A stretch of DNA of 64,000 nucleotides, taken from assembly GCA_036703985.1 (NCBI GenBank), contig DATNQN010000071.1, forward strand, positions 62,001 to 126,000, read 5' to 3'. This DNA comes from Leptolyngbyaceae cyanobacterium. Its GTDB lineage: Bacteria > Cyanobacteriota > Cyanobacteriia > Cyanobacteriales > Aerosakkonemataceae. The notes under the pieces are model-generated. The model saw nothing but the letters and a program-made list of their open reading frames with translations. It was not told the DNA's origin and did no database searches. Made by a program: the position numbers and the translations under genes. Every line of letters begins with the position of its first letter. Within the stretch, counting starts at the first letter, position 1. Positions 1,819 to 53,958 of this stretch are shown one piece after another.

Positions 1819-2136
1819 ATGGACTTATCAAAATCTTTTCTGGCAGACAATATAGCCTTCCTATTATCTGTTCCCCCTGAGAGTAATTTGGCTAAATTGT
1901 TAAGATTTTGTATAGCGATCGGATGGGATGAAAAAAATGCGGGCAAAAGCCCCGTAGAAATGGTTCGTGACCTCATGGAAGACCCAACTAATTTGCCTTA
2001 TTGGACGCGAGAAGTGATGGGACTGGACACGGAACATAGCGATCGAGAATGGATAGCATTGGGAGAAATGGGTATCAAAGACGCTAAAGAATTTATGAAT
2101 CAATTGTTCAAAGAATTGGAAAATTTGAAATTATAG
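1819..2136 (+). CDS. Conserved-looking hypothetical protein, 105 residues
   Basis: I do not recognise this family. The protein is acidic, mostly helical by composition, with no signal peptide or membrane segment. It starts MDLSKSFLADNIAFLL and has a Trp-rich middle (IGWDEKN, PYWTREVM, REWIALGEMG). Coding is plausible because the frame is fully open, begins with ATG and hydrophobic residues recur with helical spacing. It is convergent with the globin/pentapeptide gene, whose stop lies about 60 bases away on the other strand, and follows the lone receiver by 200 bases. No function can be assigned. Confidence 0.6.
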   Translation: MDLSKSFLADNIAFLLSVPPESNLAKLLRFCIAIGWDEKNAGKSPVEMVRDLMEDPTNLPYWTREVMGLDTEHSDREWIALGEMGIKDAKEFMNQLFKELENLKL

Positions 2137-2199
2137 TCAACCTTACAGATCTCTCTCCTTCATGATTTTTGCCCAGTCGAGGAGAGAGATTATAAAATT

Positions 2200-4128
2200 T
2201 TATTTATTCTCCGAACCATCAGGCATAATTGCGCCTTCTAAATTAGTACCGTTTAAGTTGGCATCTTCTAAATTAGCCCCACTCAAGTTAGCTTCACTTA
2301 AATTGGCAGCACTCAAATTAGCGCCTTTAAAGTCGGCACCACTCAACAGAGTACCGCTCAAATCTGCGCCAAGTAAGTTAGCACCAACAAAGTTACAACT
2401 AGCCATTTTAGAATTTTTTAACTTAGCAAAACTCAGATTGGCGCGACTAAAATTAACGCGAGTAAGACTGGCAAAACTCAAATCAGCACGATTGAGATTA
2501 GCGCGAGTGAAGTTAGCTTCATCTAAATCTGCCTTACTGAAATCTGCTTCCGTTAACTCAGCTTGACTCAGATCGATCTTTTCTAACTTTGCACCGTTAA
2601 CTTTTACCCCTCTCAGAGAAACAGCATCTTTATTCAAATCTTGCAGTGCCATTAACCTAGCATAGCTAACCTCTACCCCTTCTGCTCCATCTATGATGCT
2701 CCAAGCTTGGTAGTGAGATTGTTTTCTTCGTTCGGGAATCTCTTTAATAAACAGAATCAAAGCCAACACGACACTGATTGCATCAGCACTTTCGAGAATT
2801 TTTGCAAGCCAAGAATTTTCATCAGTTATTAATACAAGTACGATCAGCACCAAAGCTACAATACCAGCAATTGCCCATGTCGGTAATTCCCAAAACGATT
2901 GGATTAACTTTGCTCTAACAATAACTAAATTTTCCTGTGATTGTTTTAGCGTTACTCCTTCTTTGAAAACAGATGTCAACTTTTCAATCTGTGCTTGCAC
3001 TTGAACTTTAATTTGTGCAAATTTTTGATTAATTAAATCAATCTGGAAATCGGGATATTTTTCTTTATTGACTGCTGCCACTCCTGCAATGTTAGTGTTA
3101 GAAGAAGCCGGCACTGTCTGGGATGGCACGGGGGAATTTACATAACCCGCACCTTCTAACATTACATTAGTAATCGCGCTATAAGCATCAACCCAAGCTT
3201 GCTTAACTTCTGTTGTCCAATCTTCCTTGAGATGTGTTTCAAAACTTTTCAGCAAAGCTTCACCAACTAATGGGTAATATTCTGCTATAGTCCCGTAACC
3301 AACGTGCCTAGCTCCTAAATCTTGCAGAACTGCTTTAAGCACTTCTGGCTTGCGTAAGCTTTCTACTACTAGTACCAAAGCAGAAATCAGCTTTTTTCGC
3401 TGCTTCTTCATATCGGTAGTAGAAAATAATGGTTTTACGCTGGGATTAGCTGAAAATAGATTTTCATAGAAACTAGCGGCAAATTCCTCCGCTTGAGGCT
3501 TGATTTTGGCAAAACTACTTTCAAGTAATTCTACAGATAAAGCGCTTGATTGCTGCGGCGTTGGTGTTGCTAGTTGCGCTGCTGGAGATACTGATAGAAC
3601 TGGTGCTGACTGTTTTACTGGGACAACAGTTTCTAATGTTTGTGGTGTAACTGGTATTGTCGAGACTTTTTCCTCAGTGGGGGAAGGTTTTGGCGGTGTC
3701 TCTAATGCCGAAGATAGTGGTGGATAACCAGCACCTTCAAACATGATGTTAGTAATTGCATCATAAGCATCCATCCACGCTTGCTTGACTTCGACTGTCC
3801 AATCTTCCTTTAAATACTGCTCGAATGTAGTCAGTAATGCTGCACCTACTAATGGATAATATTTAGGGATCGCCCCGTAAGAGATGTGTCTAGATCCCAA
3901 ATCTTGCAGAACTGCTTTGAGTACTTCTGGCTTCCGTAAACTTTCTACTATTAATACTAAAGAAGCTAGCAGCTTTTTTTGCTGTTTCTTCATATCGGTA
4001 GTAGAAAATAAAGGTTTTACTCTGGGATTGGCTGCAAATAGGTTTTCGTAGAAACTAGCTGCAAATTCATCTGCTTGAGGTTTAATCCGTGCGAAACTGT
4101 TTTCTAAAATTTCAACTTGCAAAGGCAT
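2200..4128 (-). CDS. Membrane protein with two globin domains and C-terminal pentapeptide repeats
   Basis: 642 residues with an unusual domain order. Globin 1 (about 1-135) and globin 2 (about 197-329) are both of the flavohemoglobin-like type, each with a B10-type Tyr (Y27, Y221 in FYENLF), an E7-type Gln (Q49, Q243) and a proximal F8-type His (H81, H275 in the DLG-x-RH-x-x-YG motif). By hand count the two are about 78% identical, so the duplication is recent or maintained by conversion. A Pro/Thr-rich linker separates them. Then come a basic, coiled segment (365-410), two hydrophobic segments (about 417-434 and 446-463), and a right-handed beta-helix of A(D/N)Lxx pentapeptides (about 505-633) ending GAIMPDG. 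No FAD or NAD reductase domain is present. A haem-based O2, NO or redox sensor on a membrane is a reasonable inference; substrate and partner are unknown. Confidence 0.88.
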   Translation of the reverse strand: MPLQVEILENSFARIKPQADEFAASFYENLFAANPRVKPLFSTTDMKKQQKKLLASLVLIVESLRKPEVLKAVLQDLGSRHISYGAIPKYYPLVGAALLTTFEQYLKEDWTVEVKQAWMDAYDAITNIMFEGAGYPPLSSALETPPKPSPTEEKVSTIPVTPQTLETVVPVKQSAPVLSVSPAAQLATPTPQQSSALSVELLESSFAKIKPQAEEFAASFYENLFSANPSVKPLFSTTDMKKQRKKLISALVLVVESLRKPEVLKAVLQDLGARHVGYGTIAEYYPLVGEALLKSFETHLKEDWTTEVKQAWVDAYSAITNVMLEGAGYVNSPVPSQTVPASSNTNIAGVAAVNKEKYPDFQIDLINQKFAQIKVQVQAQIEKLTSVFKEGVTLKQSQENLVIVRAKLIQSFWELPTWAIAGIVALVLIVLVLITDENSWLAKILESADAISVVLALILFIKEIPERRKQSHYQAWSIIDGAEGVEVSYARLMALQDLNKDAVSLRGVKVNGAKLEKIDLSQAELTEADFSKADLDEANFTRANLNRADLSFASLTRVNFSRANLSFAKLKNSKMASCNFVGANLLGADLSGTLLSGADFKGANLSAANLSEANLSGANLEDANLNGTNLEGAIMPDGSENK

Positions 4129-53121: not shown

Positions 53122-53958
53122 ATGGATGCCAATGAATTGCTGGGGCGATATGCTGCCGGAGAGAGAGATTTTTGGGAAGTTAATCTGCCGGGAGCATCTC
53201 TGACTGGCCTTGACCTGAAGGATATCAATTTACGCGCGGCCAATTTGTCTCGCGCCAATTTAACCGGTACTAGTTTAATCGGCGCGAACTTACGGGAAGC
53301 TAATCTTCAGGGAGCGATCGTACAAGCTAACCTCACTGAAGCTAACTTAATTGCTGCCAATTTAAGCGGAGCCAACTTAAAAGGAGCTAACCTATCAGAA
53401 GCTAGTCTGCGGGGAGCCAACTTGGAAAGAGCTAACCTAAGCGGAGCTATTTTAAGCGAGACTAATCTCAATGAGGTTAACCTGCGAGAGGCTAACCTGA
53501 GTGGCGCAAAACTAATCGATGCCCCCATGAGTCGGGCTAACCTAATTAGAGCCAATCTCAGCGGCGCGATCTTAGACGGCGTAATCTTAACTCACGCGAT
53601 CTTGAACGAAGCAATTCTAGAAAAAGCTCATTTGGTCAACGCCATTTTGATTGGCGCTATTCTGGAAAATACCAATCTCACCGGTGCTGACTTGAGCCGA
53701 GCCAAATTAAGCGGGGCAAACTTGGCGGGTGCAAATATGACCAAAGCCAACATGAGAGGCGCTAACATAACTTGGGCTACTCTGCGGAGTACTAATTTGC
53801 AAGGTGCCAATCTTTACCGGACTAAACTCAGTTGGTCTAACTTAACTGGCGCGATCTTGTGCGAGGCGATTTTGATCGATGCCAATATGAATCACACTAA
53901 TCTACGAGACGCTAAACTCCAAGGCGCAATTATGCCAGACGGGAGGAGTCACGAATAG
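53122..53958 (+). CDS. Pentapeptide repeat protein
   Basis: 278 residues, almost entirely A(N/D)LxX pentapeptides from residue 24 to 270 with few breaks, giving a right-handed quadrilateral beta-helix of about 12 coils. N-terminal cap MDANELLGRYAAGERDFW. The C-terminal GAIMPDG ending is shared with the globin/pentapeptide protein at 2200. No signal peptide or membrane helix. Function unknown; some family members mimic DNA, but nothing here indicates that. Confidence 0.93.
   Translation: MDANELLGRYAAGERDFWEVNLPGASLTGLDLKDINLRAANLSRANLTGTSLIGANLREANLQGAIVQANLTEANLIAANLSGANLKGANLSEASLRGANLERANLSGAILSETNLNEVNLREANLSGAKLIDAPMSRANLIRANLSGAILDGVILTHAILNEAILEKAHLVNAILIGAILENTNLTGADLSRAKLSGANLAGANMTKANMRGANITWATLRSTNLQGANLYRTKLSWSNLTGAILCEAILIDANMNHTNLRDAKLQGAIMPDGRSHE

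Follow-up and report, generated by a model that had tools for sequence, protein, structure and literature searches.

This locus raises the question of what a single cyanobacterial membrane protein might do with two globins and a pentapeptide-repeat β-helix. The window, a stretch of 64,000 nucleotides from a Leptolyngbyaceae genome, carries the gene for this fusion on its minus strand (2200..4128; 642 aa), and Pfam profiles recover the Globin domain (PF00042) twice (E = 5e-38) and the Pentapeptide domain (PF00805; E = 2.5e-37), all within the same polypeptide. From the N terminus, with all parts on the minus strand, the protein comprises a first globin recognized by Pfam and by structure match (residues 3-135; 3724..4122), with Tyr27, Gln49 and His81 at B10, E7 and F8; a Pro/Thr/Ser-rich linker predicted by AlphaFold to be disordered, with pLDDT mostly <50 (136-195; 3544..3723); a second globin recognized by Pfam (197-330; 3139..3540), with Tyr221, Gln243 and His275 at the same positions; a second linker, in the AlphaFold model part disordered and part helix (331-409, helix 364-389; 2902..3138); two transmembrane helices identified by hydropathy and the model (413-437, 2818..2892; 447-463, 2740..2790, with the basic stretch ERRKQ after it); a helical cap conserved in its invariant columns, HYQAW...SYAR..ALQDLN (464-503; 2620..2739); and the β-helix, recognized by Pfam and AlphaFold (504-638; 2215..2619). 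Over 133 residues, the two globins share 78.2% identity. The first-pass annotation had described just such a chain, with two flavohemoglobin-like globins that keep these three residues, an identity of about 78% by hand count and about 25 repeats; profiles, hydropathy and structural modeling bear this out, the model having one rung per five residues between residues of about 509 and 639, which makes about 27 in all.

Hydropathy maxima at 413-437 (2.77) and about 443-463 (1.96) mark the two hydrophobic helices, which the AlphaFold model places at 417-434 and 448-462 alongside two globin folds. The loop between these helices is acidic and their flanks are basic (ERRKQ behind the second), which on a positive-inside reading suggests that both ends of the hairpin would lie in the cytoplasm. 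The model, built on 23 family members, is confident for the globins and the β-helix and predicts disordered linkers at 141-194, 330-372 and 383-398; its overall pTM is low (0.35), so that the placement of the domains relative to each other is not fixed. The long linkers, as predicted, argue against a stiff allosteric coupling from globin to β-helix.

Scanning 84,980 species genomes turned up 76 loci. The full architecture is kept in about 50 further fusions, and the dN/dS of the window's fusion is about 0.15 against a 66%-identical relative (approximate, as the dS of 1.6 is near saturation); hence, the fusion is no chance ORF. The plus-strand ORF at 2162-2566 was set aside as an antisense shadow of the pentapeptide repeats. 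Elsewhere in the window (53122-53958), there is a second pentapeptide repeat ORF, of 278 aa, without a globin. The full fusion is present in 10 of 390 sampled cyanobacterial genomes, and its hosts are mostly filamentous forms (Microcoleaceae, Nostocaceae, Scytonemataceae, Oculatellaceae and others). Beyond the cyanobacteria, a Flavobacteriales (Bacteroidota) MAG carries two diverged copies of 31-33% identity (L106 246-2066 and L112 204-1541). This looks like horizontal transfer rather than misbinning: the neighbors on these contigs have a Bacteroidota aspect, and the L106 contig also bears a gene whose product, by eye, resembles a PorP/SprF-type Bacteroidota protein, but its upstream flank ends with the contig. 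In several species, the fusion frame is broken by single in-frame stops at differing sites with no frameshift (L046 7014-9026, L055 121-1764, L063 630-1982, L080 167-1330, L082 3871-4671 and L112 204-1541). Decay, gene splitting or readthrough are alternative explanations for these.

Proteins of 244-426 aa with the same hairpin, HYQAW...SYAR..ALQDLN cap and β-helix but with no globins are also found within the same taxonomic order, and among the loci read in the sample of that order the globin is the only recognizable domain ahead of the hairpin module. Therefore, the globins were probably a later addition to an older membrane pentapeptide protein. In the 54 non-identical fusion ORFs from all fetched loci, their number varies from one (n = 20) through two (n = 29) and three (n = 4) to four (n = 1), always preceding the hairpin. 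In a globin tree of 133 columns, in which many forks are unresolved, globins of the same protein are often each other's closest kin, the pair in the window included (SH-aLRT 87). This pattern means that duplication or gene conversion has happened repeatedly, and that the copies do not descend from one ancient pair whose members each kept a role of their own.

The haem pocket is strongly conserved: among 91 fusion globins, CD1 Phe is present in all, B10 Tyr in 90, E7 Gln in 89 and F8 His in 87. The window's two globins combine the globin fold with all three of the residues expected of the F family (flavohaemoglobin type) at B10, E7 and F8, and their nearest relatives are HGbI, HGbRL and VHb; the best structure match by Foldseek is HGbI (3s1i; TM-score of 0.90 by target length, rmsd 1.5). 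On these conserved ligands, the window's fusion is a well-supported candidate for a membrane-bound haem protein. It is not a flavohaemoglobin proper, since the Pfam search shows no FAD/NAD(P)H reductase domain at its C terminus, and the NCBIfam flavohaemoprotein model covers only the globin part, scoring 138 bits where the cut-off is 432. Nor is it a globin-coupled sensor of the S family, given its HGbI/HGbRL/VHb kinship and the lack of kinase, cyclase, MCP or GGDEF domains in the Pfam search. The H-helix Glu of flavohaemoglobin and VHb is apparently not kept, the nearest aligned position being E, K, Q or others.

A quite different role, in which the globins serve mainly as lipid- or protein-binding modules that position the β-helix at the membrane and haem is secondary, seems very unlikely to us. 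F8 His is missing from four of the 91 globins with the architecture unchanged (in the single-globin fusions L067 and L088 it is Gln and Asp, respectively), HGbI is known to bind lipid (PMC11203436), and the membrane-β-helix module exists without globins; against this, the haem ligands are kept in more than 95% of the fusion globins.

The FHb/HGbI-type pocket, the one to four globins, repeatedly duplicated or converted as if dose mattered, and the flexible linkers would also fit a rival reading, that of a gas handler rather than a sensor: a tethered multi-globin that would store O2, feed a membrane oxidase or dioxygenate NO at the membrane with a separate reductase, with the β-helix merely a stalk or localization tag. 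A globin number that varies, among copies that tend to be closest to others in their own protein, would serve capacity no less than sensing. HGbI also combines very high O2 affinity with low autoxidation (PMC4476040), but such an affinity is poorly suited to storage or delivery; the lack of a reductase in the chain and the apparent lack of conservation of the H-helix Glu likewise speak against handling.

The first-pass annotation had held that the neighbors give no partner, which comparison of loci contradicts. On the plus strand at 1819..2136 and convergent with the fusion lies a gene for a 105-aa protein predicted to be all-alpha (pLDDT 84). The gap between the two genes contains a perfect 11-bp inverted repeat, ATCTCTCTCCT/AGGAGAGAGAT (2149..2190, read from the sequence and assigned to no strand), which may be a terminator shared by both. 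At 40 of 54 loci, neighbor clustering places this small protein next to the fusion; with a profile search, the count is 44 of 57 (some genomes counting twice, and several misses being contig ends). Its alignment of 105 columns is gap-free with 14 invariant positions, and dN/dS is about 0.08-0.14 against the window's two nearest relatives (L024 and L025; dS >1). In most species, its gene shares a strand with the fusion and lies upstream of it; Okeania and Planktothrix likewise have both genes on one strand but with the partner downstream; the convergent order belongs to the window and those two relatives. With three gene orders, the linkage has outlived rearrangement. In the 390-genome sample, the partner is present in all 10 fusion genomes versus 11 of 380 others (Fisher p = 1.8e-14, ignoring shared ancestry), and those 11 have mostly distant homologues. 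The protein belongs to no named family in Pfam, NCBIfam, PHROGs or PADLOC, and a sequence search of the PDB was likewise empty. In comparisons with PDB folds, the best Foldseek E was 2.2 and the best VIA-align Z 4.9; the latter, for DurN, lies below what is meaningful for helical proteins, and this match was set aside as too weak. A phage-defence role was also discarded, the PADLOC match being only at chance level (E = 1e-3 over 28 residues).

That this linkage reflects shared ancestry only, with each gene acting on its own, is unlikely in our estimate. In favor of that view, an intact partner is missing from several relatives, and the distant homologues in the 11 fusion-less genomes lie nearly always away from globins: in other genera their neighbors differ, with a globin at one locus only (L190). 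However, the linkage has been kept through the three arrangements and in several cyanobacterial families, with the Fisher p near 2e-14 (again with shared ancestry ignored). In the two single-globin fusions without F8 His, the partner is interrupted by about 150 nt (L067) or is missing from the genome (L088); this coincidence is suggestive only, as species with intact globins have lost the partner too. Some fusion genomes (G429-G432) lack it genome-wide, and their globins mostly keep the ligands. Two related cyanobacteria have a frameshift in the partner gene at an identical position, following residue 50 (L050 1580-1895 and L051 66-381), with the fusions intact. In a genome without the fusion, the partner gene sits beside a bestrophin and two CrcB-like genes (L176 7961-8287 and L222 6294-9771); G433 has a second fusion, again with CrcB-like genes at its flanks.

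Genes for membrane effectors recur around the pair. A NOX5-type NADPH oxidase with EF-hands (by Pfam on one representative) is found near the fusion in eight loci and lies directly before the partner in L044, L049, L058, L070 and L192; in L192, it still adjoins the partner with the fusion 12.6 kb off. The L049 protein, the sole one searched against the PDB, matches the crystallised enzyme of Cylindrospermum stagnale (E = 1e-165). That structure serves as a model of its human counterpart; we came across no account of the role of NOX5 in cyanobacteria. NOX5 is rare, with 9 of the 390 genomes carrying it; these include three of the 10 fusion genomes (p = 9e-4, ignoring shared ancestry). The six NOX5 genes of genus g157 are more remote (48-53% identity) and were rejected as cases of this association, having unrelated neighbors in the four loci read; hence, the link is local to fusion-bearing lineages. 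Also recurrent near the pair, in 11-17 loci, is a histidine phosphatase that has EF-hands and a membrane region; it is present in 4 of the 10 fusion genomes versus 4 of 380 others. In one such protein (L070 4738-6852), the membrane region is predicted to comprise several helices, and the EF-hands lie at the C terminus. In other species, the comparable position is occupied by bestrophin and MscS-type genes (L026, L028, L053, L078 and L079). The window's own genome has no NOX5 of this kind at E = 1e-80; NOX5 is therefore not an obligatory target, and the core is the fusion plus its partner, with the membrane effector varying.

Taking these findings together, we tentatively favor, at somewhat short of even chances, a membrane-tethered O2- or NO-binding haem module that, jointly with its partner, would signal to or regulate a membrane protein in its vicinity. 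On the cytoplasmic side, O2 (or NO) would be bound by the globins, which flexible linkers would attach to the two-helix hairpin; on the C-terminal side of that hairpin, the β-helix would form a stiff cytoplasmic docking surface. The small all-alpha protein encoded alongside would probably bind the fusion, and the two might report the local O2, NO or redox state to, or control, a target differing by species: a NOX5-type oxidase, an EF-hand phosphatase or an ion channel. Domain content, conservation of the haem ligands, distribution of the family, linkage of the partner and recurrence of the neighbors are observed; we infer haem and ligand binding, cytoplasmic topology, physical binding of the partner and regulation as the outcome. 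Evidence for this reading includes the pocket kept across the 91 globins, O2-binding HGbI as nearest solved relative, the related globins on signaling proteins in relatives (Cache-HAMP-cyclase and STK-GAF-PAS-cyclase) and the neighboring membrane effectors (EF-hand NOX5, EF-hand phosphatase, bestrophin and MscS). The absence of a reductase domain, the partner linkage (44/57 loci; 10/10 versus 11/380 genomes) and the broken or absent partner in L067 and L088 also count in its favor; the partner-less genomes G429-G432 weigh against it. The gas handler follows closely as a serious, if lesser, possibility: an O2-consuming NOX5 nearby in eight loci speaks for it, but handling alone leaves the partner unexplained. 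The first-pass annotation had offered a membrane-bound haem sensor or NO/O2 handler with the β-helix as output; its domain reading stands, a membrane-bound haem protein is well supported, and the sensing or handling output is still conjecture. A bolder and rather improbable extension is that the fusion would assemble with the 105-aa protein into a complex regulating cyanobacterial membrane effectors, including bacterial NOX5, as a haem- and calcium-responsive prokaryotic counterpart of the control subunits of eukaryotic NADPH oxidases, and that in other species this complex would act on ion channels.

Several parallels are offered by known systems. The closest solved globins, HGbRL of Methylacidiphilum infernorum and HGbI (E = 4e-21 and 1e-22, respectively), share B10 Tyr and E7 Gln and a globin joined to a non-reductase domain; however, HGbRL has 274 aa, with one globin and a Roadblock/LC7 domain and no membrane part or β-helix described (PMC4476040). 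The nitric oxide synthase of Synechococcus PCC 7335 (syNOS), also among the matches of the fusion globin in sequence and structure comparisons, is likewise a cyanobacterial chimera with an HGbI-like globin (PMC6104048), but one joined to NOS oxygenase and reductase domains. HglK and other cyanobacterial membrane pentapeptide proteins similarly place transmembrane helices before a pentapeptide region; HglK differs in having four predicted transmembrane regions, 36 repeats, 727 aa and no globin described (PMC8145042), and the fusion, with two hydrophobic helices, was rejected as a protein of that type. The combination had been unfamiliar at first reading; no paper joining globin and pentapeptide repeats was found in the open-access literature, and a pentapeptide review does not mention globins (PMC8145042). 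Globin chimeras (HGbRL, syNOS and globin-cyclases) and membrane pentapeptide proteins (HglK) are already known; the fusion is itself a globin chimera, and with it a membrane-anchored multi-globin joins their list. The function of most cyanobacterial pentapeptide proteins is unknown (PMC8145042). A conserved set of a ligand-binding globin head, a private partner and, in some species, an adjoining NOX5 makes questions about both pentapeptide proteins and NOX5 testable in culturable strains. The β-helix protein with its one to four globins, the recurrent small partner and the occasional superoxide-making NADPH oxidase point to an undescribed O2- or nitric-oxide-responsive membrane complex.

Related globins also occur in other contexts. 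Globin-coupled adenylate/guanylate cyclases (L034, L035, L104 and L033) resemble the fusion in being membrane or signaling proteins with a globin about 39-48% identical but differ in having that globin at the C terminus and a catalytic output; they comprise Cache-HAMP-cyclase proteins and one 2037-aa kinase-AAA-GAF-PAS-cyclase (L033 2036-8146, L034 8452-11058, L035 4353-7115 and L104 779-3379). Other cyanobacterial proteins have two or three globins in tandem without a membrane part or β-helix (L142 1030-2550 and others), and in one case (L036 5503-6891) two tandem globins, both with Asn at F8, are fused to a carboxymuconolactone decarboxylase domain.
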